A DNA stretch of 23,349 nucleotides, taken from positions 1 through 23,349 of IMG/VR virus record IMGVR_UViG_3300035157_000821. One strand, written 5' to 3'. A model generated the notes under the pieces. It did no database searches and had not been told where the DNA came from. It saw only the letters and a program-made list of their open reading frames with translations. Shown here piece by piece: positions 7,701 through 23,349 of this stretch. The DNA comes from a virus. Numbering within the stretch: the first letter of the stretch is position 1; each line of letters starts with the position of its first letter. The position numbers and the translations under genes were made by a program.

Positions 7701-10700
7701 CCTATATTAAGAACTAAATCGCCATTAACAGGATTATAACTTGCATCTGATACATCATAATTGACTAATGGAGATGTTCCAACATTAATAGTAATAGTAT
7801 CAGGAGTAGTTGCAATAATTGCAGTTGTTATTCCTGCAATAGGATCTGTAATTCTAGGATAAGAATGAACAGTTGTATTATGATCCATTCCACAACTGAA
7901 TGATATAGCATTAGTAGAGAATCCAACATTATTATTAACAATATAAGAATGTCCTGGTATAACCAATACCATTTCACCTGTTTTAGCATTATAAGTTGCA
8001 TTAGTTGGTGTTGTAGTTCCAACTCCTACTACATTAACTCCACCAGCAATAGCACTTACAAATGTATGTTCATAATCACCACCAGTAATTATCGTATCAC
8101 TTAATGCATTAACAAATATATGATCATAATCTCCACCAGTAACAACAGAATTTGCTTCAGCACTAACGAATGTATGAGAGAATTGCTCACTTGTATTAGA
8201 AACTCCAACATCAAGAGTAATAGTAGTTGGTGTTGTTGATGCAATCTCTACTGAGTTATTATAAGCATAATCTTCACCTCTTGGATAATAATGAGTAGAA
8301 TCACCATTATCTAATCCACAGGTCATTGCAATACCAGTAAATATTACATCTTTACCAGTTACATATCCATGATTGCCTGAAGTAGTTACTGTTGCAATTC
8401 CAGTGGATGCACTATAAGCAAATCCTGTAATTGACTTAGGACCAGAATATGTACAAGTAAATGCAATTCCAGAAAGAGTAACTTCATCCCCTAAAGATAA
8501 TCCATGAGGTAGGAATGTCTTAATTTCACTTATACCTGTAATTGAACTATAACCAACATTTGTTATATTTCTTGGTTTATAAAATACCTGAGAATTAGTA
8601 ACAGCAACTCCTGTTACATGCCCATCAGATACAGTAGCAGTACCAATTTCAACTTTATCAATACTAGTAAGACTTTCTTGTTGAATTGAAACATTTACAG
8701 TTTGAATTCCTGACCTGTATCCAGAACCAGTGTTACCAATACTAATAGAAGTAATAGTTCCTGCTGTACTTACAATTGCAGTACCACCAGCAGCGACTAA
8801 CGGTTGATATCCCCACCCTTCAGTCGAACCAACTGATACTATTGTACCACCTAGTGGACGATTAGTGGCATTAGCATCTCTATCTAAAGTAGGTACTTCG
8901 AGTGCTTCTCCAGTGAAAGTAATAGTAGTAATACCCGATGCTTCAGCAAGAGTATAGTTAGAAGCAGCACCTGGTCCTTGGAATACGTCATTAACTAATA
9001 TTACTCCATTTTCTGTAGCAATACCTGTTACATTTTGACCTTCTGATTTTAAAGTAAAGTCTTTGTTAATACCATTAAATTCAGCAGAAATATCATCAAA
9101 AATATAATTCTTATAATAAGTTTCATTAGTTGTATTAGGAACTCCTCGACGTAAGAATGTTCTGCCTTGGAAGTTAGAACTTGTAGAAATTCCTACCCAA
9201 TCTCTAGAATCTGGTGGATTTAAAGGTGAACTTTGAGGAATATTTCCATAAGGAGGTTCAGCAAAATTAAGTGTATTATCAACGATATTATAATTACCAT
9301 TCACTTTAGTGATTAAAGTTCCTGTTCCATATCCAGCAAGTGGAGTTCCTAACCATCCTCTTCTAACTCTTACCATATTGGTACTACCAATACCAACACC
9401 TTCAATCTTCATTATTTCATCTTCAATTCTTACTAAATCACTTCCAAAGAATGAAGTTATACCACTAAATGGAATTAAATCATTAGTTGTAAATATTTCG
9501 TCAGCAAGAACAGTAGTTTGTGCAGTAGCTACAATTGGAGATTGTAAAATATTATCTAAAGCAACAATAACTTTTGGATTCTGATTAGTTGATGTAAATC
9601 TATGAGAAGTACCAATACCCACACTAGTAATATCAAGAACCTCAGGAACTACTTTAAGTGCATTTTCAGCACTAGATGCTAACTTAATCTTATCAGCATC
9701 AATCTTAACCGCAAATAATTCTTTAGGTACAAAAGTAGTAGAGAATCCTAATTCAGGGAAATTAGTATCAACAATCTCTATTGCTTGAGTTGAACCTATT
9801 CCAGCATGTGCATATTTAATTTTTTCACCACTTACAAAGAAGTGATTGGGAATTCTAATAGTATTAGCATCAACACTAACAATATTACTATCATTACCTT
9901 CAAAACTTCTTTCAAAGATGTCGTAATTATTGTGGGTTAAATTAAATGCTCTCTTAATATCTCTATCAGTACCTGTATAATCACTCATGAATGCTGTTAC
10001 AGATCCTGCTGCATCAAGACTCATTGTAGTCTTAGCATCATCTTGTATTCTTAATGCATTCGTATAAGCATTAACTTCAACTGCAATATTTGGTAATGGT
10101 GTAAATACAATTTCAATATTAGTAGTTGCTCCAGGATTAATATTCAATCTAGATCCAAAAGTACCTAAACCAGCAACTGTTTCTACATTACCATACTCAG
10201 TATCATAAGTATCACCTGCTGCCTGTTCCTCCACATAATCATCAACAACAATAAATTCAGACATCTGATATCTATTATTAGTCGTATCAGTAACTTGAAG
10301 TATTAAATAACCACCATCATATGCCTGGTCATTTGTTCCTACTTGACTTGGGAAATCTGCAATAACTGTAGGTGTTGGATTTGCATTAGAAGCAATTGCA
10401 GTAGTTCTTGCTTCTATTCTTGCATGTTTCAAATCAGCAGTTCCAATACCAGTTGCAGCTGCTGCCATAGCAACATTCACTGTATTAACTACTGCAGTAG
10501 TTCCTATTCCTGCATTTGGATAGAAATCAACTTTTACGTTTGAACCATCAATATATGCCCTATAAGTTCCAAATCCAGAACTAGCCCAAGGAGTTAATGT
10601 TGTAGTTAACTGCCCATAATCTGATAATATTGCATCAGTTCCATCATGAATAATATTTAATTCTGTTAATTCATATTCATTATTTTGAGCACCTGTATCT

Positions 10701-13700
10701 GCTGTAATATTAACTAATGATTTAATAGAACGGTATGTAGTTGCAACACTTACAATCGTTTTTGAAGTGTCTGTAGATGCCAGTTCGGTACTTTGAGAAT
10801 CAAGGGTTACAACTCCACCAAAACTTGTAGCACCAGTAGCAACAAAATTATCATTCAAATTATAAGAAAGAGCCATGACCCAATAGTCATTAACTGCAGA
10901 CTTAGTAGGATAGAATAATAACTGTCCATTATTACCAGATATAACAAAATCAAAAGAACCTTGGTCATACTGAGTTTCAACTCTACCATATTGATTAATA
11001 TAACCATTAGCATTATCATGAATAAGATCAACAACCATTAATTGTCTTTGTCCAATAAATCTCTTATCTCTTACAAATGTAAGATATTTAAGAGAACGAG
11101 TGTCTGATAAACTAAAGCTTCCAGCAACACTATATGCAGTTGCTCTAGGATGACTATTAAATTGTGGACTGATATCATCAATTGAGAGTACTCTATTACC
11201 AATTGATTCGTAGTAATCAGTAAGAACTCTACTATTAAAGATTATTTCATCAGATGCTATTTTATAATCTAATAATAATGAATTTTCTCTTACTAAATCA
11301 AAATCATAATCGCAATTTAAATCACCATATCCAATTAAATCATTAATAACTTCAAAGGAAGTTAAATTCGTAGATAGTCCTACGGTTGCATTAACAGGTT
11401 CATTTTCTAATTGATAATCAGAGAATTTTCTAAATCCTAAAGTATGATTAACACTACTTACCAAATCATCCCAAGTATCATAATCAACTCTAGACCTTAA
11501 AGAATATGCAAAATTCTGATAATAGAAACTATCTTGAATTCTTTGCATATTATAATTAAGAACTCCTGATTGAGTTGCATTTCCTTTCTCTACTCTAGCA
11601 AAAGCTTTTAATTTAAAATGAGCATCATATGAAGTTATTGAAGATGCAATACCTTGAGTATTTGATGATGAACCTTTAATTACTTCATTAACTACAAAAT
11701 CATCTTTTGAGGATATTTTTAAAACACCGTCATTAGTATCCCAAGACTCAACTATACCAGTTGCAGATTTTGATTTAACTTCTTCCCCAACAAAGAATTC
11801 ATTAGTAGTTAATTTTGTTTCAAATACTGGGAAATACTTTTCGGGAATAATTCTTCCAGCAGAATTTCCAGGTATAAATTCTCCAATAGTTTTACCAGCA
11901 CCAACCAAGTTACCCATATTATAAGTAACTGTTGCTCCAATTCCACCTATATTTGGATGAGTCGCAGTAATTGTAAATAATTGATGATTATAATTAACAG
12001 AATTATAACCTAATCCAGTTGAACCTACTCCTACACTTATATTCTCTACCATCACCTTATCATTTACATTAAATGGGAAGGTATCAGCAGTACTAAATCC
12101 AACATTTAATTCTACTGTTACATCTTTAGTAGTTGGATTATAAGAAATAGTATTAATTCCTACACCATTTGAATTTTCGATAGGAAGAATAGTTGGAGGC
12201 AGCATAGACATGCCTGTAGTATTCTTTAAAATTTCTATTTTAGAGTTACCTAATGTATATTTTAAATCAACACCAGGTAATTCTTTTTTAGTTTCTCCAT
12301 CCAAAACAACTAATTTTGGTGCAACACCGTATCCTTTTCCAACAGAAGTTACTCCAACAGATTCTAAAGATCCAAGATCTCTAATTACAACAAATTGAGG
12401 TAAATTAACACTAGGAGTTAAAGTAGGATCTGAAGGATAATCAAAACCAATATCTTTAATTTTAGTTTGTTTTATTTGACCAATATTGTCACTAGATGCT
12501 TCTACTAATGCATTTTTACCACTTATAGAATTAATATTAGAAATTCCAGGAAGAGAATAATAATTTTGTCCTTTATTAATAATTTCAAATTGATTTATAC
12601 TTCCAAACGCAGTTTTTGATGTAGTAGTATATTTTAAATCAGAAGAAGGTGTATTATAAGAACTTGATTCAGGTATATTAGGAATAGAATATTTAAAGGA
12701 ACTAGTCGAACCAATAGTAATGGTCTGTTCACCATTATAAAGACTGTTTTTAACTTCTATTTCACTATTATTAATTACAGGATCAATAATAATATTTTTA
12801 TATAAATCAGGTAAATCATTTTCTGAAATAGGATCTAATTTATAGAATAAAATTTCTGGAAGATAATTATCTACTTTTAAAGTAACTTTAGCATCTGCAG
12901 TTACACCAACAATACCTGTTCTTTGTACTTCAAAATTTCTACTAATTTTACTTGTCTTCCAGTCTTCATTAAAATCTTTATCAACATAGAAATTAAATGC
13001 AAATGCAGAATAAGATACTCCTTGATTAATATATGAAAGAGAAGAGTCTGATAAATCAAATGTTACTGTAGAATCTTTATATACTTTCAATAAAGGATTA
13101 ATCTTACTGAAAGTTGCATCTTGAGCACTTGTAATATCAACAACTACTGGTTTTAATTGAGTTGATTTATAATAAGTAGTTGATAATTTAAATGTATTAT
13201 TATCAACTTTAACAATATAATATATTCCATTATCATCCAATCCTCCTGTAGAAACAGAAGCAGTATGAATAACTTTTTCACCAGTCACATATCCATGAGC
13301 AACAAGACTAAATGAATTATTAGTTGTGTTTATATTAGCAGCAGTGACTGTTGTAGGATCAACTACAAGTCTTCTATTATACTTGTTATATTTTACAACA
13401 AATGTTTTACTATTATTTGGATTAACTGAAACATTAACTACATCATTATTTGATAATCCATGTGTTGATGCAGCAGCAACAGTAACAATATGCTGAGATA
13501 TTTCTCCAGTTATTGGTTCATGAGTAGTTTTAAAACTATGATATGTTCCTGTTCCAATTCCAGTAAAGAATAATGTTGTAGAGTTAGTAAAACCACTATC
13601 AATTCCTTTAAAGGTACCAGTTGAACCTAATGCAACTCTTACAGTTGCTAAACCAACCAAATCATCACTAATTTTAGCAACATAAACAGTAGAAGGTAAA

Positions 13701-16700
13701 GTTGCTATTGATACATTAGAATCATAAGTAATAGAAATTCCAAGACCAGTATTTGCAAAATAATTAAGTTTATCTCCCGTTTTTAATCCGTGATTTGGAA
13801 TATAAAGTGACTTTGTAGGAATAAAGATTTCACTAGAACCTGCACCTGGATTATTAAGAGATATAGTATTTCCTACACCAATTCCAGTAAGAGTTCCTAC
13901 TCCAACTGTATGAATTGGATTAAAATAAATTTCTTTATTTACTTTATAATCATAAGTTGTATTAAATCCAGCATTAACAGTTAATCTTCTTGGTTGTTCA
14001 TAAACAACTGTTGTTACTGAATGAGATGACCCTACAGTATTATCAACTTCTCTTAATACTCTAATCCTAGAATATAAAGGTTCTACATTTAAAACCTTTA
14101 CTTTTTCTGTGCCTATTCCTAAAATATCATTACTTCTAATTTTACTCTCAGATAAATCACCAACAACCTTTAAGAAAGTAACTATTCCTGTTGTAGATAC
14201 ATTATCAACTGCTATTGTACTTGTACCAATTCCCAATAATGACCAGGTATTAGTAGTAACACCTACATTATAAGTACCTCCAATTTTAGATGAAGTAGTA
14301 GATAATCCACTAATTGTAAGTAATTCTGTATTTACAAAATTATGAGGATTAGGAGAAACAATCTCATATTCACCATTTGTGGTGGTAGGATAAATCTCTA
14401 CTCCAGTAATAACACTACTTGCAACACTAACATTAGTTACTCTTTTACCCTCAAGATTAGATACCTTAGCATCTGCACCTGTACCACTTGTATTATTATT
14501 ATCAAATACAACCCTATCTCCAACTTTATATAATTCTCCTCCAGTTTGTATACCTATTTTATCAATAGTACCAGGAGTTATACCTGTTATATCTACTGTT
14601 TGTAATAAATCATTAGGTATAGAAAGATACTTATAATTAAGTTCTTTATCAATTAAATTATATGGTTGAGTATTTCTAAACCATCCATCAGGATTAAAAT
14701 TATGTTGAGTAGATGTATGAGAAAAATTATAATTATTTGGAATAGAATTATAATTAGCACCTATTAAATAAGGGAATTTAGGTTCCTTATATCCATCAAA
14801 TGGACCTGCAGAAGCAGCGACAGAAGTATCAATAGTTGCAAAATATGCATAAGTTCCATTCGGAAATTCTGGAGTTACACAAAATCTTCCATTATTCTTA
14901 TCAAGAACTGTGTTATCGTTTACTTCTTTGTGAGAATAATCCTCCACAAAGAATCCTTCAGGATAAATTGAAACAGAAGGTCTTCCTTCTTTTAAATCTA
15001 AAGAATAACCAGATTGCATTTGAGCAATTGTTCCACCTTCATCAGTAAGATACCCATAAGGTCCATATATTGGATTGCCATCATATGCCCATCCAATTAT
15101 AGGTGAATGGAACTCTGATTGTATTTCGGTATTGTTTACTCTTCTTAAGTCAGTTCTATTATATAAAGTTCTACCAGATTGGTCTACAGAATAAATTACT
15201 TCTCTTAATTTTCGTGGTGCATATAAGTGAGTATATTGAAGACCTTTATTACCTTTTACAATAAATCCATCATCTTCAGTGAAATTAGGATCTCTTTGGA
15301 ATAAATTTATATTCCAAGTCTGAATATTTGATTTTACCTTTAACCCACTACCTACTGTTCTAACTGAAACTGTTGTAGATGCTTGTACATAACCAGTTCC
15401 CCCAGATATTATTTTAACATCTGTTAATTGATTATTTTCTATTACTGGTGTTAATATTGCACCAAAACCTACTCCATCAATATCTAAATCAGGAACAGCA
15501 CTATATTGTTTACCTTTATTTAAAATAATAACATCAATAATTTTTCCATCAACAACTACTGGTTGTAATTGTGCATTTCTTCCACCAATAAGAAAAACAG
15601 AAGGTTCTCTGTCAAAATTAATGATTTCAGCAGAACCATATCCATCCCCATTATTAGATAAATGTATAGATGTAACCTCTCCTCTGAAAATTGGTTGTAT
15701 CTTTGCAGTAAAGGTTTCAGTACCTACAGAAGATATTCCAATATTACCAGTTAATGTTACACTAATATCCTGATAATTAAAGACTTGTGTTCCTACACCA
15801 ATGGATTTAATATTAACATATTGCTCAGTATCATATAAATCTTTTGTTTCAGATAATTTAAAATTATTATCATCAATTTTTGTTACATAATATTCAGATC
15901 CATTAGTAAGACCTTGAATATTAGTTCCTTCTGTAGTGTACTTAACAACTTGTCCAGAACTATAATCATGATTATTAATAGTAATTTTGTCTAAAACAGT
16001 ACTAATACCTACTGGTTGTACTGTTCTTTTTTTATTTTGATAATTCGTTCCTGGATTAACAACATTAATAGAATCAATAACTGATTTTTTATTAACAGAC
16101 CTTAATATTTGTTTTCCTATACCATATGAAGTTAAATCTATAGGATTAGACCCAATAATAGCATCAGCATATGTAGAATGAATTTTTATATTATACTCAT
16201 CTACAACATTTACAAAATAATTGGTTCCATCTATAAGTCCACCAACTACCGTTTGTCCATCTGAATTATAAATTACTTCTTCTGCATTTCTAAATTTATG
16301 ATAAACTGCTCCAAATCCAATAGTATTAGTAGCAAGATTTACTGCAGAAGTAGAAGCAGCACCTGCAAAAGGAAGACTAGAATTAAATGAAACCTTATGT
16401 ACTATAGATTTCATATTTGCCGTAGCAAATGCTCCTTCTCCAGCACCACCAGTAATAGTAATAATAGGAGTTTCAGTATAATCGAATCCAGTATCTATAA
16501 CTTCAATTCGATTTAAAGAACCAGAAATAGCAGGAAATCCTGTTGCTCCTGTTCCTACAGAATCAGATATATTTAAAAGTGGAGGATTTATAATATCATA
16601 TCCACTTCCATTAGAAACTACATCAACAGAATTTAATTTTCCATAATTAATAAAATCAGTAGATTTATAATTGGTTATTTCAACACCATTAATCAAAATA

Positions 16701-18910
16701 CCAGTAGAACCTGGTTCAGTGGAATATACAACCCCATCATCTTTAGGAAGTGATACTTCTCTTAAAATTTCTTGTGGTTGTAAAGTAGATTTTCTTAAAT
16801 TATAAGGTGTAAAAATACAATTAGTTACAACTGCAGTATTCTCTAAGAAAATAAAATCTGATTTTGCTATATTTGCTTGACTACTGGCAAGTTTAATAGT
16901 AGTAGAATCAACTCTTTTAACAAAATATAAACCTTCACCTGGAGGAGTTCTATCACTAACATCTACTCCATCAGCATTACCTGTTACTACATATTCTAAA
17001 TCTCCAGTAAATAATGAAGAATTTACCTTTAAACCTGTTTTTGAATTAAAGAAAGCATCATAATAATTATAAGAAACTATCTCAGGAATGTAATAAACAG
17101 CATCACCAGTATAGAATCCATGCTCTTCATCAGAGATTTTAAAAGTATCTGTATCAAATGTACCAGAAAAAGTTATAGATCGAGTAGAAACATTTAATGG
17201 TTGCTCATTATAAGTTGGAAGAGAAGGAGTTGCTATTAATAAATCACTACCTTTCTTATAAGTATTTTGAACATTAGTAGAATAAAGGTCAATATCAGTA
17301 AATGTATTTGATTGTCCTTTAGATAAATTCCTCTGAATAGTATGTTTTTGAGCAATTGCAAGATTTCCTTGACCCTTAATATTAAAGATATTTGCTGCAC
17401 TTAAAGAAATTACAGTGGTTTCTTTATTAATACCATCAGTACCTTTAATAGTAGCATTATCACCTATTTTAAAAATAGTATCAGCATCAGTAGTTACTTG
17501 ATATATTAACTCAACACTATCAATTAATTGTATTTTAGTGATATTATAAATTGGAGATAAATTATAAACCCAATTTTTTCCTTTAAATGTATTTTCATTT
17601 ACACCAAGAGTTTTAATTTTTGCAGTATTACCCTTAGAATAACCTTTAGTTTTATCTGAATATTCTAATTTATCTAAAACATTATTAATTCTTACTTTAA
17701 TAGTTTTAGTAGAATCTTTAACAGATGTTCCAAATGCATAAGTATTAATTCCAATATTTGCAGCATCTTCTATAATTCCAGTTATATTACTACAACCAAA
17801 GAACTGAGTTAATGATTTAGAAGTATAAGAAACAATTCCTGTAGTAGTATCATTGTAAATTACCGATAATTCTCCAGAATGTGCAAAATCAACAGTTGAA
17901 TCAACATTAAGTACTGTAGTACCTGCACCTATTTGACCAATTAATTTTGTTTTAGGATGTACGGAGAATGCACCATACATTGCACCGTCAACTCTAGAAT
18001 CTCTATTATATCCACCATCAATACTAAACTTATAAGCAGTAGTTGCAGTTCCTGTAAAAACTTTTTCTACACTAGTAATAGGAGCATATGCTTTTTGTAT
18101 ATCAGCACCATATTCGTTTTGAAATAATGTAGATTGTTCTAAATCTACAGGATCTCCTTCAATTGCTTCAACAACCAAATCATTAGTTACTCTATACTGT
18201 GCATTAGACGGTGTAAAGAGGAATTCACCAGGTCTAATAATTTTTACTTCCTCATCATATAATGCTTTGAATAAAATTTCAAAAGATCTATCTGTACCTT
18301 TACTTAAATAAAAATCCTTTGCTTGTTTAATAAAAATATTCTGATTTAGGTCAGAATGTAATGATCTATCTTCAAGTCCAGGTAATAATTGATATTTGGT
18401 TTTTAAAAGAAATTCCTTTAGAAAGAGAGTACTTAGATTCGTTACCTCAGACCCCTTTGTATGCGTCTCTGAGGCGGTTGAATCGAAAACTAGTACATCT
18501 GGATTAGTCTCTGACTTATATGAAGATATTCCACAAAATCCTCTAACACAACCAGTGAAAGCAACATCTGTTTTACCAGTGTATGTAATAATTTCATTAT
18601 CAATTTTTAAAAGACCATAATTCTCAGGGAATCCTTTTGTTCCTTGAGGGGATACTGTCATATCTACATTAATAGTCTCCTCAATTTCATCAATCGCATC
18701 ATTTAATGTAACACTTTGAACTGTATTTGTAGTCTCATCTAATTTAGAATATTGGTCTATATTCTGAATTAAATCAGCAGGAGCACCCTGATATTCATTT
18801 GCTTGATAATATGTCTTTAAAAAATCCGAAACCAGTGGAAATTCGTCCCTGACATACTCAGGAAGCTGGTTTTGAACTATATTATTAAACTGAACTCTTT
18901 TTACTGGCAT
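4781..18910 (-). CDS. Giant virion structural protein with gp7-like baseplate head and repeat-rich body
   Basis: A single uninterrupted 4,709-codon gene, roughly half a megadalton. Residues 1-245 correspond to the C-terminal part of T4 baseplate wedge gp7. Beyond that it is a chain of beta-rich modules: many 'V.N.G.GY..P' repeats, 'Y.V..D.NTFKLS' repeats (~600-3100 and ~4030), a YHYH domain (~1255-1384), a 'DSFYYQNFAYSLRSRV...W..LV' module (~2450-2510), a tandem-duplicated domain (~2725-2957), an 'RIEDEIMKIEG...RRGWLGT' module (~3160) and the C-x2-D-x5-H repeats (3531-3960). 'FVNDILQVPGRGYTFSGG' (~4210) precedes the C-terminal glycine-rich end. ATG at 18910 lies one base after the gp6 stop; no Shine-Dalgarno is clear, so coupling to gp6 is likely. 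No transmembrane segment, nucleotide-binding motif or enzymatic site was recognised. Expected to join the baseplate wedge through its head and project as fibre or spike; that is inferred. Confidence 0.85.
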   Translation of the reverse strand: MPVKRVQFNNIVQNQLPEYVRDEFPLVSDFLKTYYQANEYQGAPADLIQNIDQYSKLDETTNTVQSVTLNDAIDEIEETINVDMTVSPQGTKGFPENYGLLKIDNEIITYTGKTDVAFTGCVRGFCGISSYKSETNPDVLVFDSTASETHTKGSEVTNLSTLFLKEFLLKTKYQLLPGLEDRSLHSDLNQNIFIKQAKDFYLSKGTDRSFEILFKALYDEEVKIIRPGEFLFTPSNAQYRVTNDLVVEAIEGDPVDLEQSTLFQNEYGADIQKAYAPITSVEKVFTGTATTAYKFSIDGGYNRDSRVDGAMYGAFSVHPKTKLIGQIGAGTTVLNVDSTVDFAHSGELSVIYNDTTTGIVSYTSKSLTQFFGCSNITGIIEDAANIGINTYAFGTSVKDSTKTIKVRINNVLDKLEYSDKTKGYSKGNTAKIKTLGVNENTFKGKNWVYNLSPIYNITKIQLIDSVELIYQVTTDADTIFKIGDNATIKGTDGINKETTVISLSAANIFNIKGQGNLAIAQKHTIQRNLSKGQSNTFTDIDLYSTNVQNTYKKGSDLLIATPSLPTYNEQPLNVSTRSITFSGTFDTDTFKISDEEHGFYTGDAVYYIPEIVSYNYYDAFFNSKTGLKVNSSLFTGDLEYVVTGNADGVDVSDRTPPGEGLYFVKRVDSTTIKLASSQANIAKSDFIFLENTAVVTNCIFTPYNLRKSTLQPQEILREVSLPKDDGVVYSTEPGSTGILINGVEITNYKSTDFINYGKLNSVDVVSNGSGYDIINPPLLNISDSVGTGATGFPAISGSLNRIEVIDTGFDYTETPIITITGGAGEGAFATANMKSIVHKVSFNSSLPFAGAASTSAVNLATNTIGFGAVYHKFRNAEEVIYNSDGQTVVGGLIDGTNYFVNVVDEYNIKIHSTYADAIIGSNPIDLTSYGIGKQILRSVNKKSVIDSINVVNPGTNYQNKKRTVQPVGISTVLDKITINNHDYSSGQVVKYTTEGTNIQGLTNGSEYYVTKIDDNNFKLSETKDLYDTEQYVNIKSIGVGTQVFNYQDISVTLTGNIGISSVGTETFTAKIQPIFRGEVTSIHLSNNGDGYGSAEIINFDREPSVFLIGGRNAQLQPVVVDGKIIDVIILNKGKQYSAVPDLDIDGVGFGAILTPVIENNQLTDVKIISGGTGYVQASTTVSVRTVGSGLKVKSNIQTWNINLFQRDPNFTEDDGFIVKGNKGLQYTHLYAPRKLREVIYSVDQSGRTLYNRTDLRRVNNTEIQSEFHSPIIGWAYDGNPIYGPYGYLTDEGGTIAQMQSGYSLDLKEGRPSVSIYPEGFFVEDYSHKEVNDNTVLDKNNGRFCVTPEFPNGTYAYFATIDTSVAASAGPFDGYKEPKFPYLIGANYNSIPNNYNFSHTSTQHNFNPDGWFRNTQPYNLIDKELNYKYLSIPNDLLQTVDITGITPGTIDKIGIQTGGELYKVGDRVVFDNNNTSGTGADAKVSNLEGKRVTNVSVASSVITGVEIYPTTTNGEYEIVSPNPHNFVNTELLTISGLSTTSSKIGGTYNVGVTTNTWSLLGIGTSTIAVDNVSTTGIVTFLKVVGDLSESKIRSNDILGIGTEKVKVLNVEPLYSRIRVLREVDNTVGSSHSVTTVVYEQPRRLTVNAGFNTTYDYKVNKEIYFNPIHTVGVGTLTGIGVGNTISLNNPGAGSSEIFIPTKSLYIPNHGLKTGDKLNYFANTGLGISITYDSNVSIATLPSTVYVAKISDDLVGLATVRVALGSTGTFKGIDSGFTNSTTLFFTGIGTGTYHSFKTTHEPITGEISQHIVTVAAASTHGLSNNDVVNVSVNPNNSKTFVVKYNKYNRRLVVDPTTVTAANINTTNNSFSLVAHGYVTGEKVIHTASVSTGGLDDNGIYYIVKVDNNTFKLSTTYYKSTQLKPVVVDITSAQDATFSKINPLLKVYKDSTVTFDLSDSSLSYINQGVSYSAFAFNFYVDKDFNEDWKTSKISRNFEVQRTGIVGVTADAKVTLKVDNYLPEILFYKLDPISENDLPDLYKNIIIDPVINNSEIEVKNSLYNGEQTITIGSTSSFKYSIPNIPESSSYNTPSSDLKYTTTSKTAFGSINQFEIINKGQNYYSLPGISNINSISGKNALVEASSDNIGQIKQTKIKDIGFDYPSDPTLTPSVNLPQFVVIRDLGSLESVGVTSVGKGYGVAPKLVVLDGETKKELPGVDLKYTLGNSKIEILKNTTGMSMLPPTILPIENSNGVGINTISYNPTTKDVTVELNVGFSTADTFPFNVNDKVMVENISVGVGSTGLGYNSVNYNHQLFTITATHPNIGGIGATVTYNMGNLVGAGKTIGEFIPGNSAGRIIPEKYFPVFETKLTTNEFFVGEEVKSKSATGIVESWDTNDGVLKISSKDDFVVNEVIKGSSSNTQGIASSITSYDAHFKLKAFARVEKGNATQSGVLNYNMQRIQDSFYYQNFAYSLRSRVDYDTWDDLVSSVNHTLGFRKFSDYQLENEPVNATVGLSTNLTSFEVINDLIGYGDLNCDYDFDLVRENSLLLDYKIASDEIIFNSRVLTDYYESIGNRVLSIDDISPQFNSHPRATAYSVAGSFSLSDTRSLKYLTFVRDKRFIGQRQLMVVDLIHDNANGYINQYGRVETQYDQGSFDFVISGNNGQLLFYPTKSAVNDYWVMALSYNLNDNFVATGATSFGGVVTLDSQSTELASTDTSKTIVSVATTYRSIKSLVNITADTGAQNNEYELTELNIIHDGTDAILSDYGQLTTTLTPWASSGFGTYRAYIDGSNVKVDFYPNAGIGTTAVVNTVNVAMAAAATGIGTADLKHARIEARTTAIASNANPTPTVIADFPSQVGTNDQAYDGGYLILQVTDTTNNRYQMSEFIVVDDYVEEQAAGDTYDTEYGNVETVAGLGTFGSRLNINPGATTNIEIVFTPLPNIAVEVNAYTNALRIQDDAKTTMSLDAAGSVTAFMSDYTGTDRDIKRAFNLTHNNYDIFERSFEGNDSNIVSVDANTIRIPNHFFVSGEKIKYAHAGIGSTQAIEIVDTNFPELGFSTTFVPKELFAVKIDADKIKLASSAENALKVVPEVLDITSVGIGTSHRFTSTNQNPKVIVALDNILQSPIVATAQTTVLADEIFTTNDLIPFSGITSFFGSDLVRIEDEIMKIEGVGIGSTNMVRVRRGWLGTPLAGYGTGTLITKVNGNYNIVDNTLNFAEPPYGNIPQSSPLNPPDSRDWVGISTSSNFQGRTFLRRGVPNTTNETYYKNYIFDDISAEFNGINKDFTLKSEGQNVTGIATENGVILVNDVFQGPGAASNYTLAEASGITTITFTGEALEVPTLDRDANATNRPLGGTIVSVGSTEGWGYQPLVAAGGTAIVSTAGTITSISIGNTGSGYRSGIQTVNVSIQQESLTSIDKVEIGTATVSDGHVTGVAVTNSQVFYKPRNITNVGYSSITGISEIKTFLPHGLSLGDEVTLSGIAFTCTYSGPKSITGFAYSASTGIATVTTSGNHGYVTGKDVIFTGIAMTCGLDNGDSTHYYPRGEDYAYNNSVEIASTTPTTITLDVGVSNTSEQFSHTFVSAEANSVVTGGDYDHIFVNALSDTIITGGDYEHTFVSAIAGGVNVVGVGTTTPTNATYNAKTGEMVLVIPGHSYIVNNNVGFSTNAISFSCGMDHNTTVHSYPRITDPIAGITTAIIATTPDTITINVGTSPLVNYDVSDASYNPVNGDLVLNIGNHTLRGETSHNISTAAYNPSSGIMTCTVAGVTTFADGDRVMFVDNSLSFVCEQDNFATTHTYPRATDPKSKKWLPITGVTTNTFEVQVLDTIPSTNTGIHTFLQGSLKKAGESIRLRNNSINFRCAMDDYTTIHSYPRSTDPASNTAVSIGAVTNDTITVKVGTSLTVYHTPTNATYDAGNGTLVLTIGSHQLTAGTSVKLLEESLSFTCAKDSGITTHKYPRKPDPYYAGTKITEVNSANEFVVNVGVSTVPTYYKSGGTVQGVIVAPRPTDKAVSNGTDTGRATVLSIVDNNTFRVNTGVSSRTHFYARSGKVSKALDVVFDTPLSYDDMPLVYANGESGFGTAAKVNVQVGQGSSVIDFKIVNTGYGYGVGDILTVPIGGTTGIPTTSGFQEFQLTVTEEFTDEFTGWSIGTLDVLDDFDGKFDGSTKAFRISKAGTLVSIRSSAGSNINVEDALLVFVNDILQVPGRGYTFSGGSVITFTEAPKSGDKSKILFYKGTGGLDVVFKDILETIKKGDKLTVGYDPSKGQKSSLQEDPRIVTSVDATDLVTTNPYFGPGNTTDETLMRPVVWCRQTEDEIVDGKEIGKDRSLYEPSIYPSGYLIKTVGVGSTAIWVDNLRPFFNAENENDTETSFQNGITLYNQDKVVGASATAVVSAAGTISSIILSSGGIGYPSAPIVSIASTIGFNTSTMAMAEATISNGTITGIAITNNGGVGYDITNPPQVLIDPPVVITEKDKVSSYAGDNGIIVGFGTDDESGMDKFVFDFYIPDDSYLRDPLIVGTALTLSSIQVNDFFVITQSNVGLAETSLVSRDINQNIIGVGTQFVDNVYQASDVSFVEVSFVGAEESKTGIGTTHITRVKANLSGVSTAGFSNTNIYFDSTQYTFDSGYTGGSGVSGMNTIGGGTTSSVPFGNFSWGRIELDGRTKSISYPAYTLGGIGIGGTTNPTGIHTSSIVVRTEKLKSKNYAI
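7031..8320 (-). repeat. Five C-x2-D-x5-H-x2-PR repeats in the giant protein
   Basis: Five 14-residue copies, always preceded by F-x-C context: CGLDNGDSTHYYPR (8279-8320), CGMDHNTTVHSYPR (7853-7894), CEQDNFATTHTYPR (7508-7549), CAMDDYTTIHSYPR (7286-7327) and CAKDSGITTHKYPR (7031-7072). Cys, Asp, His, Tyr-Pro-Arg are invariant in all five. Four copies continue with x-x-D-P. Each is followed by a T.TITV.VGTS strand and an 'AxYxxxxGxLVLTIGxH' strand, so the true module is longer (about 75-140 residues, variable spacing). A CTYS element just upstream of the first copy may be a decayed sixth. Confidence 0.9.
8039..8176 (-). repeat. 54-bp tandem repeat (18 aa, ~2.5 copies) in the giant gene
   Basis: In frame, HTFVSAEANSVVTGGDYD, HIFVNALSDTIITGGDYE and the partial HTFVSAIAGG follow each other at an exact 54-bp period; first His codons are at 8174-8176, 8120-8122 and 8066-8068. 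The DNA is still similar, so duplication looks fairly recent or conserved. It lies inside the first C-x2-D-x5-H module and lengthens it. Confidence 0.85.
10040..10735 (-). repeat. Diverged tandem duplication of a beta domain in the giant protein
   Basis: Two neighbouring segments share the same order of motifs. The first (~10460-10735) has 'NITADTGAQNNEYELTELN' and 'IHDGTDAILSDYGQ', then a FGTYRAYIDGSNVKVDFYP strand. The second (~10040-10310) has 'QVTDTTNNRYQMSEFIVVDD', a 'YDTEYGNVET' segment and GTFGSRLNINPG...IVFTP. Similarity is at protein level only; boundaries are approximate. Confidence 0.65.
14759..15150 (-). other. YHYH-type domain inside the giant protein
   Basis: Residues ~1255-1384 contain 'HSPIIGWAYDGNPIYGPYGY' (Trp1274 codon at 15089-15091), followed by 'LDKNNGRFCVTPEFPNGTYA' and ending 'FPYLIG'. 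These three blocks are the signature of the YHYH domain known from secreted bacterial and marine phage structural proteins. Function of the domain is not established; in virions it is probably a surface module. Confidence 0.8.
18176..18910 (-). other. gp7-like wedge module at the N-terminus of the giant protein
   Basis: Residues 1-245 follow the T4 gp7 C-terminal region in order: 'LPEYVRDEFPLVSDFLKTYY' for gp7's MMPDSYLLQDSNFEAFCEAY, then 'FIKQAKDFYLSKGTDRSFEI' continuing with LFKALYDEEVKI for gp7's 'YDFYSTKGIEASYKFLFKVL' plus YNEEVEI. A phage-typical 'EIITYTGKTDVAFTGCVRG' segment (106-124) is inserted between the two blocks. This supports docking to gp6/gp8 in the baseplate. Alignment is from memory of T4 gp7. 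Confidence 0.75.
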
Positions 18911-18911
18911 T

Positions 18912-20837
18912 TTATGATCTTACTAGTGTCCCGTTTTGGTAACTGGAGGTTACAATGTAATTGGATGCTGATGGATCTAACCCAGAGGAAATTTCATCAA
19001 CAACTGTTTCAAAATTACTGTTACTTATATCTAGTTGCAAATATAAGTCCTGTAATCCAACAACGTCATTGGATTTAGGACAAGCAGATAGTTCTATAAT
19101 TTGTTGACCATCTTTCATTTTACCAGATAGAACATTAACTGGATTAATAGTTATAATTCCTTTTTTATAATTAACAGTTCCCACGTTTCGTTTAACAATT
19201 GTTGGACTTGTTGAGTTTGGAGAAGGAAGACTAAAGAAAAAGAGTGAACCAGTCTCTTTATTAGTGTTTGGTACATCAGAGATATAAAGATCTTCTGTAT
19301 AACCACTTATTTTGAATGGAGTGGATTTAATATTGTATCCATCCATACTCTTAATATGAAATTCATTACCAAATCCAATTTGGTACTCTGCAAATGCATT
19401 AATAACGACTCTTAAGTCTCTACGAATTTGAATTGTTGTAATATTAGAAGTAATAGCATTTGTGCTATCATCAATAACCTTCAGGAATTTACTATATTTG
19501 AATCTTGCTCCATATCTATTTAATTCAGTAGATTCTGAGTATTTTGTAGAATTTTGAATTGCTAAAGTAGAAACATATGCTGCATTAGGTGCCAAATTAC
19601 TATTATAATAAATTTTGGAGTCAACTTCAAGGTAAAGATACTTCAAATCAAGAATTTCAGGTATAATTCCTGCAACTGCATACTTTTTAAGTTTAGTTTT
19701 GATATTTTCTTTGATTAAATTAGGTAAAAAGTCACCTGTTCGTGGTTTTATGCTTATAAAAACCTTTCCATACTGAGGAGGTATCAATTCTTCACCCCCA
19801 AATACGGAAATTGACTCAGTTTCGGGATAAATTCTTGATGGAATTAAAGTTTCATAGTCATTTGCCGTTAAAGCACGATTTTGAGAAGCATATATGCGTG
19901 GTGCATACTTTTTAACCGATTCAACCGACTCAATATTCTCTCCACCAGTAGAAATAGCACTTGTTGTAAGTAAAGAAATGCCACTTGTGACAGAATAATC
20001 TAAACTATTGCGATTATAACTTAATTTTCCAGAAAATACGAATCCACTAACACCATTTGCACTATCTCCGTTACAAACAATGTAATCTACAGTAATAAAA
20101 TTATTTGCATCTAAAGATTTTCCAAAAATTCCATCTCCAAAGAAGATTTCATACCTTTCATCGCTAATTTCTTGTAAAAAATAGACTAATGAATTTTTAT
20201 CTATGTCAAAAAGACTATCTTGATAAGAATATTTGGTACCAGTCGTCGATTGTTCATTATTTTTGACTGTTACAGTAATTAAATCAGTGTCAATTCCAGA
20301 ATTTGGTAAAATAAACTTCTCATTTGGGTCAGAAATGTTAAATGTGAAGTCTTTTGTTAAAAGTGTGCCCTGATAAACAAAAACATTATCAAATGTTGCT
20401 GTTCCATTGTAAACTGGAACGGTAATATCTTCTAAAATTGAAAAAACAAAGGAAGAATTGCCAAAAGATGTAGTTGTTGATGCTACTGGACCTTTTTTAA
20501 GGGTTAAAGATGAAGGAACAGGTGTAACTGAGGTTAAATCTACTGTAAAACTAATAGTTGCTCTTGCTGCTGTCCTTGATCTAGGGATATATCCTATATT
20601 TCTTGCTAAAGAAACAACATTTTCTCTTAAAGTTGCACTATCAATGAATACTTCATTCGTTACCATGTTGGCATTGTATGAAGTAATGTAAGTATTGTAT
20701 GCTAAAACATCCAAAATGGTTGAAAGGTTAGACCCTTCAAAGTCATAATCAGTAAAATTAGCATTTGTTTGCAAATACTCTTTAAGAGTTGTCTTAACCT
20801 GATCAAAATCAAGGTTAGAAAAGTTAACTAAGGGCAT
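18912..20837 (-). CDS. 6: Baseplate wedge protein gp6 (T4-like, baseplate J family)
   Basis: A 641-aa homologue of T4 gp6 (about 660 aa), the inner baseplate wedge protein that dimerises to form the ring around the hub and is structurally related to P2 gpJ and TssF. Typical family text includes 'YDFEGSNLSTILDVLAYNT' (31-49), 'NEVFIDSATLRENVVSLARN' (61-80) with IGYIPRS after it, and the J-like block 'NRALTANDYETLIPSRIYPE' (~318-340) followed by 'YGKVFISIKP'. The ATG is one base past the gp25 stop and is preceded by TAGGTAA, a usable Shine-Dalgarno. The gene then runs into the giant with another one-base gap, so gp25-gp6-giant look like one translation-coupled unit. No odd features; full length. 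Confidence 0.93.
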   Translation of the reverse strand: MPLVNFSNLDFDQVKTTLKEYLQTNANFTDYDFEGSNLSTILDVLAYNTYITSYNANMVTNEVFIDSATLRENVVSLARNIGYIPRSRTAARATISFTVDLTSVTPVPSSLTLKKGPVASTTTSFGNSSFVFSILEDITVPVYNGTATFDNVFVYQGTLLTKDFTFNISDPNEKFILPNSGIDTDLITVTVKNNEQSTTGTKYSYQDSLFDIDKNSLVYFLQEISDERYEIFFGDGIFGKSLDANNFITVDYIVCNGDSANGVSGFVFSGKLSYNRNSLDYSVTSGISLLTTSAISTGGENIESVESVKKYAPRIYASQNRALTANDYETLIPSRIYPETESISVFGGEELIPPQYGKVFISIKPRTGDFLPNLIKENIKTKLKKYAVAGIIPEILDLKYLYLEVDSKIYYNSNLAPNAAYVSTLAIQNSTKYSESTELNRYGARFKYSKFLKVIDDSTNAITSNITTIQIRRDLRVVINAFAEYQIGFGNEFHIKSMDGYNIKSTPFKISGYTEDLYISDVPNTNKETGSLFFFSLPSPNSTSPTIVKRNVGTVNYKKGIITINPVNVLSGKMKDGQQIIELSACPKSNDVVGLQDLYLQLDISNSNFETVVDEISSGLDPSASNYIVTSSYQNGTLVRS

Positions 20838-20838
20838 T

Positions 20839-21240
20839 TTACCTAGCTGCTTCTAAAGCGAATTGTAATTGTTGTGGGGGAATATCTGCACCTATAATCT
20901 CATACACGATATTTACATCATAAGAGTTGTTGTCAAAGTCAGGATTTGCTTCTACTGAGAGTAATTCTACTCTTGGTTCAAAGTTTTCAATGGAAGTTCT
21001 AATTTCATCCACAATTATACCTGCAGAAATCATATCAATATTCTCAAATAGGATTTTACTAACTTTAGAACCGAAATTTGGTTCAAAAGGTTTCTCTCCT
21101 GGAAGAGTCATAATGATATTTCTTACCGATCTAGAGATTGCAGATGCATTCTTTATTGCAATAAGGTCTCTTGTCAATGGATTTGATCCAAATGACATAC
21201 TTATATCTTTAAAACTTTGACTTACCCGTTGTAAAGGCAC
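20839..21240 (-). CDS. 25: Baseplate wedge protein gp25 (T4-like, TssE family), GTG start
   Basis: A 133-aa homologue of T4 gp25 (132 aa), part of the gp6-gp7-gp25 core bundle of the wedge that links baseplate to sheath. It has the lysozyme-like TssE fold name but no catalytic role. The diagnostic EPR motif is at residues 88-90 (ENFEPRVEL), and 'GEKPFEPNFGSK' (48-59) is also typical. The start is GTG at 21238-21240; the first ATG (21198) would remove 'MPLQRVSQSFKDIS', which I recognise as the usual cyanophage gp25 N-terminus, so GTG is preferred. No Shine-Dalgarno is clear. A perfect TATAAATA late motif lies 21-28 bp upstream. Confidence 0.93.
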   Translation of the reverse strand: MPLQRVSQSFKDISMSFGSNPLTRDLIAIKNASAISRSVRNIIMTLPGEKPFEPNFGSKVSKILFENIDMISAGIIVDEIRTSIENFEPRVELLSVEANPDFDNNSYDVNIVYEIIGADIPPQQLQFALEAAR

Positions 21241-21261
21241 TATAATACACCAATTATCTTT

Positions 21262-21269
21262 TATTTATA
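21262..21269 (-). promoter_or_regulatory. 25: T4-type late promoter TATAAATA before gp25
   Basis: The minus strand has an exact TATAAATA in the 40-bp gap between the 63-aa gene and gp25. With the T4 geometry (motif at -13 to -6) transcription would start near 21256, leaving a ~16-nt leader before the GTG. Probably the start of the late gp25-gp6-giant transcript. Confidence 0.7.
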
Positions 21270-21280
21270 GGGGTTTATGA

Positions 21281-21472
21281 CTAAAATTCCTGAAGGTTAG
21301 CAGAATTCGCTCCATTATGCATTAAATCCACCTCATAATCGAGTCCATCAGGTTCATATAGGTCATTTTCTACCTTTAAATCTCTTTTTTTAGGAGTTTG
21401 GTCGTCATTTGCTATCTCTCGTAGCATTTTTTGGTGCTGATGATTACCTAAATTGTCTAAAAAATCTTTCAT
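21281..21472 (-). CDS. Small hypothetical protein (63 aa)
   Basis: No function recognised. The protein is charged and polar ('MKDFLDNLGNHQHQKMLREI' at the start, then alternating acidic and basic residues and DGLDYEVDLMHNGA). It has no membrane segment, cysteine or known motif, and looks like a small soluble helical protein ending in 'NLQEF'. It lies between the terminator of the early operon (15 bp upstream of its ATG) and the gp25 late promoter. The ATG is preceded by AATACTAAA without a Shine-Dalgarno. Sensible codon flow, a Glu/Asp/Lys-rich protein composition and the lack of any competing gene support it as real. It may be read from a late motif at 21514-21521. Confidence 0.7.
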   Translation of the reverse strand: MKDFLDNLGNHQHQKMLREIANDDQTPKKRDLKVENDLYEPDGLDYEVDLMHNGANSANLQEF

Positions 21473-21486
21473 TTTAGTATTGCAAT

Positions 21487-21510
21487 AAAAAAAGGACTCT
21501 TTCGAGTCCC
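21487..21510 (-). terminator. Rho-independent terminator of the accessory operon
   Basis: On the minus strand GGACTC-GAAA-GAGTCC forms a 6-bp perfect stem (plus a G-T closing pair) with a stable GNRA tetraloop, directly followed by seven T. It begins 7 nt after the stop codon of the 47-aa gene, the expected end of the glycosyltransferase operon transcript. Confidence 0.9.
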
Positions 21511-21513
21511 TTG

Positions 21514-21521
21514 TATTTATT
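21514..21521 (-). promoter_or_regulatory. Candidate late promoter AATAAATA abutting the terminator
   Basis: AATAAATA on the minus strand overlaps the TAA of the 47-aa gene. With T4 late geometry the start site would be near 21508, inside the 5' arm of the terminator hairpin, so a transcript started here would lack part of the stem. It would serve the 63-aa gene and gp25. Position is suggestive; the motif is short and AT-rich. Confidence 0.4.
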
Positions 21522-21660
21522 TACCTTGTCCACGGTAGCGTTTTTTTGCTTTATTTCGAGAGGTCGCTGCATAGGTAGTATGTTTTCCTCTCCCCTGAAG
21601 GGTTTTTTTCGGTTTTGATTCAATATGTTGGTCTGAATTCCAACTAACAGATTTTGCCAT
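21517..21660 (-). CDS. Small strongly basic protein (47 aa)
   Basis: Translated by hand from ATG at 21660: begins MAKSVSWNSDQHIESKPKK and ends 'NKAKKRYRGQGK'. About a third of residues are Lys, Arg or His, with no Cys or hydrophobic segment, which fits a nucleic-acid-binding or otherwise disordered basic peptide. I recall closely similar short proteins ending in KKRYRGQG in many marine cyanophages, where they are left as hypothetical. It starts 3 bp after the 28-aa gene and stops 7 nt before the terminator hairpin, so it is the last gene of the operon. DNA or RNA binding is inferred from charge only. Confidence 0.8.
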   Translation of the reverse strand: MAKSVSWNSDQHIESKPKKTLQGRGKHTTYAATSRNKAKKRYRGQGK

Positions 21661-21663
21661 AAT

Positions 21664-21750
21664 TTAATGTGGGTTATAAGTTTTGATATACCAAGCGAAA
21701 ATGCATATTGCGAGAATCGCTGCTAGACCGAGATACGAAAGAAAGAGCAT
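21664..21750 (-). CDS. Tiny single-span membrane protein (28 aa)
   Basis: ATG at 21750 opens a 28-residue frame beginning MLFLSYLGLAAILAICIFAW and ending 'YIKTYNPH'. Residues 2-22 are a continuous hydrophobic helix, long enough to cross a membrane once. The start lies 4 bp after the glycosyltransferase stop with AAGG just before it (ATAAGGTAATG), and the stop is 3 bp before the next ATG, so the spacing is that of a coupled gene. Too short for homology reasoning. It could be a membrane-active accessory peptide or a chance frame; tight packing favours a gene. Confidence 0.6.
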   Translation of the reverse strand: MLFLSYLGLAAILAICIFAWYIKTYNPH

Positions 21751-21754
21751 TACC

Positions 21755-22561
21755 TTATATAATACGAGATTTTTCGTGCCCTACACGAATACGGGGGTCA
21801 CATAAGATCTCAAATCCTGCATCGATTGCATCTAAACAGAAACTAACATCTTCTCCACACATATCTTGAACCGCACCTGATTCAAAGACTTGCATCTTTG
21901 GAGCAAACCAAGGATACTTCATTTTCTCAGATTCAAATACACCCTTCTTAATCATCAACCAACCGAAACCTGCGTAGTCTACTGTGAAAGGTTTCTTTCT
22001 TTTCGAGATACTTTCGACGGTTTCGTGATTCATAACCCCGCCATTCTTGCGGAAATCATCCTCTTCTAACCAATGTGCTACTGAAGTAGTCTTACCATCC
22101 TCTGTTGCATACCATCCTGAGACGATATCCTGAGTCTTCTCTTCGTCTACTGTGCCGTCTTCGTTCACTGCATCTGCTGGAACCATCATATCACATAACT
22201 GCCAGAACTTCGCTGAATCAAATACTATATCTGAGTCAATCCAGAGTTGATAGTCATATGCGAGTTTACCGTCCCAAGGTATTTGATCTGGTCCTCTGAG
22301 AACATTTGCTCCAAGGCACTTACATCTCGCAAAGTTAACCATTGAGGAATAATCTTGAGAGATTTGGATTGACATACCATTCTGAACCATGTCAAAGCAT
22401 AACTGCACGAAGTTCTTCAGAAAGATGTATGACACTCCACGACCTGGAAGACAGAATACAATCTGCTTACCTTTCATTCTTGCCTTAATCGCATCAATAT
22501 CCCAATCTTCTTTCTTCTTGGGTTTTGGTGCATTGGCTTTTACTGTAAATCCTTTTGCCAT
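21755..22561 (-). CDS. GT-A type glycosyltransferase-like protein
   Basis: A 268-aa protein conserved among T4-like cyanophages, usually labelled glycosyltransferase. Seen here: a Rossmann-like opening strand 'KQIVFCLPGRGVSYIFLKNF' (32-51), the DxD-type metal/nucleotide-sugar motif in 'LWIDSDIVF' (Asp109, Asp111), the late-domain 'AGFGWLMIKKGVF' (197-209), the acceptor-side 'CGEDVSFC' (Glu237, Asp238) and C-terminal 'DPRIRVGHEKSRII' with His262. This order fits a GT2/GT-A fold transferring a sugar from a nucleotide-sugar. Substrate is unknown; modified nucleotides, host surface glycan or virion protein are all possible. The first 20 residues are lysine-rich. It is driven by the sigma-70 promoter at 22584-22612 and lacks a clear Shine-Dalgarno. 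Confidence 0.8.
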   Translation of the reverse strand: MAKGFTVKANAPKPKKKEDWDIDAIKARMKGKQIVFCLPGRGVSYIFLKNFVQLCFDMVQNGMSIQISQDYSSMVNFARCKCLGANVLRGPDQIPWDGKLAYDYQLWIDSDIVFDSAKFWQLCDMMVPADAVNEDGTVDEEKTQDIVSGWYATEDGKTTSVAHWLEEDDFRKNGGVMNHETVESISKRKKPFTVDYAGFGWLMIKKGVFESEKMKYPWFAPKMQVFESGAVQDMCGEDVSFCLDAIDAGFEILCDPRIRVGHEKSRII

Positions 22562-22583
22562 AGCGTGTTGTAATTACATTTCA

Positions 22584-22612
22584 ATTATAGACTGATATAT
22601 GTATAATGTCAA
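22584..22612 (-). promoter_or_regulatory. Perfect-consensus sigma-70 promoter upstream of the glycosyltransferase gene
   Basis: Minus strand: TTGACA (22607-22612), 17-bp spacer, TATAAT (22584-22589). Both hexamers and the spacing equal the bacterial housekeeping consensus. The start should fall near 22577, about 16 nt before the ATG at 22561. The TGA stop of the oxygenase gene is inside the -35 box. Typical of a strong early phage promoter read by host RNA polymerase. Confidence 0.88.
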
Positions 22613-23118
22613 TGTAGGAAATGCGTAATACACCACCTTCCCATACCTTTAAACTTATCATCCATACTTGTTGTATTAACTTCATGTTTTATCTTACCAG
22701 GAAATATGATTGCTTTATTCGATTCTAATTCAATCGTCTTATTATAATCTGTAAAGACAAACTCACCACCTGTAAATCTCTTAGGTTCTTTATACATCCA
22801 GTTTAATATTGTTATTTTACAGTTATCTTCATGTGGTTTAAAATAATCTCCCTCCTCATAATAAGATAAGAAACTAGTTTCATCAGGAACCAGAGTATTA
22901 TCAAGAATTGTTCTCAACTTATTTTCAAATACTTCATCTGATGTTGGTAGTTCATTATCTAATATTCTACACCAACATCGATTACGCTCATCTTCGACCC
23001 TCATCAAATTACTCTGATGCTCATCAAGTTCTTTCCAGAGTTTCTCCTCTTGTTCTTCTGTATATAATTCCCTAACAATAGTATAAGGAAACTCTTCATT
23101 TATATGTTCAATTTTCAT
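22609..23118 (-). CDS. 2-oxoglutarate/Fe(II)-dependent oxygenase (Phy/P4H-like fold)
   Basis: A 169-aa non-haem iron dioxygenase: oxidises a substrate while decarboxylating 2-oxoglutarate. The facial triad is visible as His96-x-Asp98 in YFKPHEDNC and His145 in GKIKHEVN, and Arg161 in GRWCITHF is the expected 2-oxoglutarate anchor. 'FTGGEFVFTD' and 'IIFPGKIKHEV' are family-typical strands. An upstream in-frame extension to 23169 exists, but the start at 23118 (MKIEHINEEF) is chosen because its ATG overlaps the previous gene's TAA (TAATG), the extension lies wholly within that gene and GGAGGAGG sits 10 nt upstream. Such oxygenases are frequent in marine T4-like phages; the substrate is unknown (protein, nucleobase or small molecule). 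Confidence 0.88.
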   Translation of the reverse strand: MKIEHINEEFPYTIVRELYTEEQEEKLWKELDEHQSNLMRVEDERNRCWCRILDNELPTSDEVFENKLRTILDNTLVPDETSFLSYYEEGDYFKPHEDNCKITILNWMYKEPKRFTGGEFVFTDYNKTIELESNKAIIFPGKIKHEVNTTSMDDKFKGMGRWCITHFLH

Positions 23119-23330
23119 TAATAAGAATCCTCCTCCCATAACTCTTTTTGGATAACCGACCCATCCCATTTATCTCCCAATTTGATATACGACAAGTCAC
23201 TGGTAGAATACTCTGTCTTCAGTAACCCTACCATTACTTGTAGTAGTTCCCACTTCTCTTTGAAATCCTTCTCGTTTATATTACAATACAATACCGTATC
23301 CTTTGCATAGATGTGGTAAGTAGTAGGCAT
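23118..23330 (-). CDS. Small hypothetical protein (70 aa)
   Basis: No function recognised. Starts 'MPTTYHIYAKDTVLYCNINE' and continues with an amphipathic 'FKEKWELLQVMVGLLKTEY' helix and a short SDLSYIKL strand, ending 'LWEEDSY'. The pattern (short beta start, helix, 'LSYIKL') resembles small conserved cyanophage hypotheticals of about this size that I recall next to structural genes. No signal peptide, membrane span or metal motif. It overlaps the oxygenase start by one base (TAATG), so the two are translation-coupled. Upstream sequence is only 19 bp long in this window, so its promoter and any preceding gene cannot be judged. Confidence 0.75.
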   Translation of the reverse strand: MPTTYHIYAKDTVLYCNINEKDFKEKWELLQVMVGLLKTEYSTSDLSYIKLGDKWDGSVIQKELWEEDSY

Positions 23331-23349
23331 ATCTTTAAGGGGGCAAATA

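Follow-up and report, generated by a model that had tools for sequence, protein, structure and literature searches.

Myoviruses of the T4 type are reported to be ubiquitous in the sea (PMC3037559). The T4-type late promoter (gp55/gp33/gp45) is described as an 8-bp box with A or T at −13 that lies upstream of late genes (PMC2984593, PMC1524935, PMC2988020). In the accounts cited, the T4 late box occupies −13 to −6 (PMC1524935), and A at −13 is a recorded T4 late-promoter variant (PMC2988020). The T4 genes 49, e, soc and I-TevI are reported to have mRNAs with an inhibitory structure at the translation start (PMC3014915), and their late promoters are described as sited so that late RNAs do not contain the 5′ strand of a hairpin that the longer early transcripts can form (PMC3014915, PMC2988022). 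In a Kayvirus, which infects Staphylococcus, no marked activity is reported for a sequence that resembles a late promoter and lies immediately upstream of a terminator (PMC7698491). Each part is known on its own (the T4 late box, the intrinsic terminator, a late start within an early hairpin); no description of a layout in which terminator and late promoter overlap was found in the portions of the literature searched.

The window analysed here, a 23,349-nucleotide stretch of viral DNA (positions 1 to 23,349 of IMG/VR record IMGVR_UViG_3300035157_000821), is a fragment of a T4-like cyanomyovirus with gp25, gp6, and baseplate wedge and tail genes on the minus strand. In the order of transcription, gp25 is preceded by a sigma70 promoter, the phrog_1574 gene, a 28-aa ORF, the phrog_516 gene, AATAAATA, a hairpin with U7, a 63-aa gene and TATAAATA. 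These features are:

22584..22612, minus strand: sigma70-type promoter TTGACA-N17-TATAAT, presumed early, 12/12 consensus match
21755..22561, minus strand: phrog_1574 gene, 268 aa, function unknown, first in the presumed early operon
21664..21750, minus strand: 28-aa hydrophobic ORF between phrog_1574 and phrog_516, read by eye
21517..21660, minus strand: phrog_516 gene, 47 aa, C-terminus RGQGK-stop, profile E 1.5e-21 (scanned as 46 aa)
21514..21521, minus strand: late promoter box AATAAATA, assigned by motif, register against the hairpin kept in relatives
21508..21508, minus strand: predicted late transcription start (G of GACTC), placed by T4 spacing
21487..21512, minus strand: candidate intrinsic terminator, 9-bp GAAA-loop hairpin at 21512-21491 and U7 at 21493-21487
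21281..21472, minus strand: 63-aa gene (KMLREIANDxxTPKK family), presumed target of the late promoter, weak phrog_35080 match, E 0.15
21262..21269, minus strand: separate late box TATAAATA for gp25
20839..21240, minus strand: gp25 baseplate wedge gene, which heads the structural block, phrog_261, E 4e-53
18912-20837, minus strand: gp6
4781-18910, minus strand: 4709-aa baseplate wedge protein, a single ORF, phrog_2885 (baseplate wedge subunit) match over residues 2-3698

The 4709-aa ORF also has a Pfam YHYH match at residues 1261-1364, and a protein of the Peptidase_S8 (subtilase) family is encoded among the tail genes at 790-2481. A 2OG-Fe(II) oxygenase-like gene (PF13640) lies at 22609-23169, and its 3′ end overlaps the −35 hexamer of the sigma70 promoter.

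On the minus strand, AATAAATA (21521-21514) is followed by one base and then by the hairpin AAGGGACTC-GAAA-GAGTCCTTT (21512-21491), which bears out the statement of the first-pass annotation that the box directly precedes the hairpin. With 9 pairs and a 4-nt loop, this GC-rich hairpin is listed first among 6 terminator-like sites in 12000-23349; a U tract follows it directly, and the stem is kept in relatives. The predicted folding energy is −12.3 kcal/mol for 29 nt (z −3.4) and −13.6 kcal/mol for 38 nt (z −5.9). It covers neither a ribosome-binding site nor a start codon, as the stem ends at 21491 and the start codon begins at 21472. The hairpin is predicted to terminate the early RNA.

AATAAATA agrees with the box of T4-type late promoters (TATAAATA or NATAAATA) and overlaps the last codon and TAA stop of the 47-aa phrog_516 gene; its A at −13 is common among the late boxes of relatives. 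Because the T4 late box occupies −13 to −6, +1 falls at 21508, inside the 5′ arm, the position that the first-pass annotation had also derived from T4 spacing. Judged by motif and spacing, the box is predicted to be used late from this position. RNA starting at 21508 retains GACTC-GAAA-GAGTC at −6.6 kcal/mol, and this residual 5-bp hairpin before U7 falls within a loose definition of a terminator. NATAAATA occurs six times in the window, both strands counted, and its chance of lying at a gap of 0-5 nt is ~8e-4 per hairpin, in an arithmetic that ignores A-rich flanks. When ≤1 mismatch is allowed, TATAAATA shows no enrichment in the window (93 sites against 107.9 expected). Conservation is a stronger argument for the element than this chance estimate.

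The first-pass annotation had supposed early transcripts arriving from the right, and their likely source is the TTGACA-N17-TATAAT promoter at 22612-22584. Among 88 unique regions (100 nt before phrog_1574, window included), all score ≥10/12 against the sigma70 consensus, compared with 1/88 for shuffled start regions, and 34 score 12/12; the spacer is 17 in 83 of the 88. Phage P-TIM68 has a similar small ORF in the same position between the two operon genes, as read by eye. Because its promoter is of the sigma70 type, the phrog_1574/phrog_516 operon is taken to be early.

Conservation of the element was examined in two sets. IMG/VR was scanned by pattern for hairpins of the form ATAAATA-N0-6-GACTC; 84 stretches were reported, 80 of them listed, and together with the window they gave 73 unique composites. 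With gaps of 0-6 allowed, the gap to the G of GACTC is 5 nt in 69/69 of these pattern-selected composites that have the 63-aa family gene, and the remaining 4 of the 73 have different neighbour genes (family read by eye). Since this set was selected for the motif, a second set was assembled without motif selection. It consists of 178 unique phrog_516 3′ regions from loci fetched by gp25, the 63-aa gene or phrog_516, from 17 isolate genomes, and from the window. Where a hairpin and the 63-aa gene occur within 420 nt, the motif precedes the hairpin in 28/37 regions, follows it in 5/37, and does neither in 4/37, so that, as in T4-type late promoters, a box is conserved before the same gene in relatives. 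By eye, TGTAAATA follows the hairpin in three of the four junctions with neither (L094, L476 and L494) and is absent from the fourth (L510). Where a hairpin has no 63-aa gene within 420 nt, the motif is found before it in 0/27 and after it in 7/27. Only 2/114 phrog_516 ends without a hairpin carry the motif. The association of motif and hairpin has a Fisher p of 8e-13, uncorrected for kinship.

These counts bear on the idea that AATAAATA is no promoter at all, being a by-product of the TAA stop and its A-rich flank, or a run of A paired to the U tract. The stop codon does lie within the motif, AAUAAA pairs with UUUAUU in the fold of 21521-21484, and some ATAAATA anagrams precede hairpins as often as the motif. 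However, the near absence of the motif from phrog_516 ends without a hairpin disfavours a coding by-product, and the motif is kept both away from the phrog_516 stop, in the composites of L266, L284, L294, L319, L301, L316 and L323, and where the hairpin is absent, as late boxes before the 63-aa gene in L099, L109-L111 and L124. The A–U extension is not general either, because the bases after the U tract vary among relatives. We consider this explanation highly improbable.

Other layouts of the same parts were also seen. The late box lies after the U tract in other lineages, for example L125, L132, L135, L141, L148, L149 and L156, and L132 and L149 have an extra ORF between the late box and the 63-aa gene. 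Many relatives of the 63-aa gene stand behind other upstream genes and have no box in the 85 nt examined. Short AT-rich repeats (TTAGTATTCA, AATACTC-like) occur between phrog_516 and the composite in L301, L316 and L323.

The register is also kept in the 28 motif-unselected junctions, of which 25 have a gap of 5 nt and 3 a gap of 4 nt (gaps up to 8 examined). The promoter–hairpin distance, which the first-pass annotation had proposed to compare among relatives, is therefore kept in them, and the unrelated spacing that it had named as refuting was not seen. The T4-spaced +1 is G in 25/28 of these junctions, and the gap to the first 5-bp stem is 3-5 nt in 79/79 loci (gaps 0-30 allowed; pattern-selected loci included). 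The earlier expectation that a late start would cut the stem stands for the outer pairs, which the predicted start would remove; the stem would be shortened and not destroyed, with 5 bp left in 25/28 and 4 bp in 3/28. For comparison, a late RNA of the T4 gene e/49 type is one that lacks the 5′ strand of the hairpin. The distance from hairpin to start codon is itself 21-24 nt in 72/79, which weakens the register argument, and part of the fixed register may be due to ancestry. A quick tree built from 100 phrog_1574 proteins has the overlapped layout in 19 of its rows. This distribution takes a minimum of 6 changes, and well-supported branches force 3 of these. The layout is not one recent copy; the rows are not independent, and phages recombine.

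Pairing in the stem was compared over 41 unique composites, 39 before the family gene and 2 elsewhere, 16 of the 41 occurring in motif-unselected loci. The search pattern all but fixes the inner five pairs with the exception of pair 2, where only matching combinations are present (U-A 37, C-G 4). Pairs 6 and 7, which the search left free and which would be missing from a late RNA, are pairable in 41/41 (pair 6: G-C 36, A-U 4, G-U 1; pair 7: A-U 17, G-U 15, G-C 9). In some cases the partner is the first U of the tract, so the pairing lends modest support to the formation of a full stem in RNA read from upstream. The late-RNA hairpin over the 41 composites has a mean of −6.6 kcal/mol (range −9.5 to −2.6), and in GACCC variants the GC-closed stem loses ≤1 pair at the late start. 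What the sequences show are the parts of the element, their order, their conservation and their register.

A search for similar overlaps was performed in cultured phages. Upstream overlap (ATAAATA, gap 0-5) is not enriched among loose hairpins in 17 cyanophage genomes, with 7/904 against an upstream mean of 2.9 and a maximum of 8 for the other 20 anagrams of ATAAATA. A stricter scan of 7 of these 17 genomes found few overlaps as well, and the exact form ATAAATA-N0-6-GGGACTC was found neither in 7 cyanophages and T4 nor in 10 further cyanophages. ATAAATA within 35 nt downstream of a hairpin occurs in 29/904, compared with a mean of 9.4 for the other 20 anagrams; the single higher anagram, TAAATAA (33), can overlap the motif. 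The upstream overlaps are:

SynMITS9220M01: after regA
S-PM2: between nrdB and rusA, near 115176
P-SSM4: after psbD, near 172839
S-SSM5: after a small ORF following psbD, before a gene annotated as major head protein, near 167440
S-SM1: like S-SSM5 by sequence
P-SSM2: between purL and hsp20
S-CAM9: after a small ORF

A late start would leave little or no hairpin (0 to −2.2 kcal/mol) in S-PM2, S-SM1, S-SSM5, S-CAM9 and SynMITS9220M01, while −7.1 and −5.5 kcal/mol would be retained in P-SSM4 and P-SSM2, respectively. The same scan of T4 gave one upstream overlap, the gene 49 leader, where AATAAATA abuts a hairpin of which a late start would leave nothing (0 kcal/mol). The rusA gene of S-PM2 is a Holliday-junction resolvase gene, like T4 gene 49. 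The isolate overlaps at regA, psbD, nrdB and purL borders are few and can be called suggestive.

An 80-base DNA search of a phage collection matched 51 records, none over 80% of the query, and 17 of the best 20 of these 51 are ACG-2014d. In one marine single-cell record the phrog_516 stop and the hairpin are present with no late box between them. ACG-2014d has a near-copy of the element, TATAAATA-CAAGG-GACCC-CTCG-GGGTC-C-U7-ATTGCA, with the register and spacer letters of the window (one record read). It lies at an unrelated border, between gp24 and a carbamoyltransferase gene (L642 890-945; near 105560 in the ACG-2014d record), as though the module had relocated or had two origins. Since gp24 is a late gene in T4, a stop at this place would not serve early RNA. 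Either the module acts as an insulator in general and has been re-used here as such, or only some sites have the early role.

The ACG-2014d copy takes weight from an early/late switch and adds it to an explanation by compaction or general insulation, in which terminator and late promoter are both real and overlap because the intergenic space is short, the position of +1 in the stem having no function of its own. The module would then mark early/late and late/late borders alike. Terminator-then-promoter layouts do a similar job elsewhere, upstream overlap is as rare as in the controls, and a 5-bp stem remains in the late RNA. On the other hand, the gap is constant to within 2 nt although the loops differ, as do the letters of the spacer and the outer stem, and the late start removes nearly the whole hairpin in 5/7 isolate overlaps and in T4 gene 49. 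We hold compaction to be rather unlikely.

The pairing of the first base in 28/28 predicted late folds raises another explanation, that one hairpin serves two RNA ends: the full stem would form and protect the early 3′ end, and the 5-bp stem-loop would protect the late RNA from 5′-end-dependent decay. Stem-loops at the 5′ terminus stabilise mRNA in E. coli, and the late stem of 5 bp (4 bp in three junctions) would be of this kind. Against this, most isolate overlaps would keep almost none of the stem, and a terminator needs its inner pairs anyway; this account appears very unlikely. A related proposal would have the full stem end and cap the early RNA, with the 5-bp 5′-terminal stem-loop shielding the late RNA while being too weak to terminate. 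It would further make the element a transcription-level counterpart of T4 gene 49, with its register under selection and the module re-used in ACG-2014d. This combined proposal is unlikely in our view.

The reading that we prefer, with slightly better than even confidence, is that the overlapped terminator and late promoter act as a handover between early and late transcription. A host-type RNA polymerase would start early at the sigma70 promoter (22612-22584), and the transcript would cover phrog_1574, the small hydrophobic ORF and phrog_516 and stop at the hairpin and U7; its timing and termination are predicted from the promoter type and the fold. Late in infection, a phage polymerase of the gp55 type would start at 21508 from AATAAATA, as motif and spacing indicate. 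This RNA would be without the outer stem pairs and, on reaching the U tract, about 22 nt in length, which may make termination less likely. It would express the 63-aa gene and could continue into gp25. About 40 bp would thus shield a late gene from early transcription and then start it late. Escape of the late RNA from termination is plausible, and it is the weakest step of the handover because 5 bp and U7 remain and the Kayvirus late-promoter-like sequence is not clearly active. The kept register and the sigma70 promoter together indicate a probable early operon that ends at the terminator, with the late box inside it serving the 63-aa gene.

The first-pass annotation had placed a simple early/late switch at the boundary of the structural block. 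The switch part agrees with the geometry of T4 gene 49, whereas the boundary part does not hold in this form, as the 63-aa gene comes next and gp25 has a box of its own. In 76/79 start regions, window included, a NATAAATA motif begins 28-37 nt ahead of gp25. The element is therefore not the sole control of the structural block, and a role as the only gate of gp25 was dropped.

If the handover is true, a T4-like phage packs the stop and the late start of successive transcripts into about 40 bp. On a defined sequence, the locus would also make it possible to test whether a terminator next to a promoter loses its action when transcription starts inside its stem. Sequence alone is enough to recognise the layout.

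The late box shares with the NATAAATA form of S-PM2 and other cyanomyoviruses its 8 bp, the A or T at −13 and the position upstream of late genes, and differs from late promoters of the S-PM2 type in overlapping an upstream stop codon and sitting against a terminator. Terminator-then-late-promoter layouts in cyanophages and T4 (e.g., with TTTTTTTATAAATA) likewise have a stop followed by an immediate late start; unlike here, their late start lies beyond the hairpin and the stem is uncut. The late box TTTTTTTATAAATA follows the U tract of a terminator directly or after a few bases in L546 near 743, L559 near 14878, L578 near 16522 and L588 near 11801, and in T4 a terminator U tract runs into or near the late box TTTTTCTTTATAAATA (L245 near 7160 and L248 near 15810). 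T4 gene 49 is alike in geometry, with a late box that abuts the hairpin and a late start inside the early hairpin. In gene 49 the hairpin ends a few bases before the ATG, covers the ribosome-binding site and blocks translation, whereas the hairpin of the window carries U7 and stands about 20 nt before the start codon. Compared with T4 genes 49 and e, the geometry is similar, but the step that is blocked would be transcription rather than translation.
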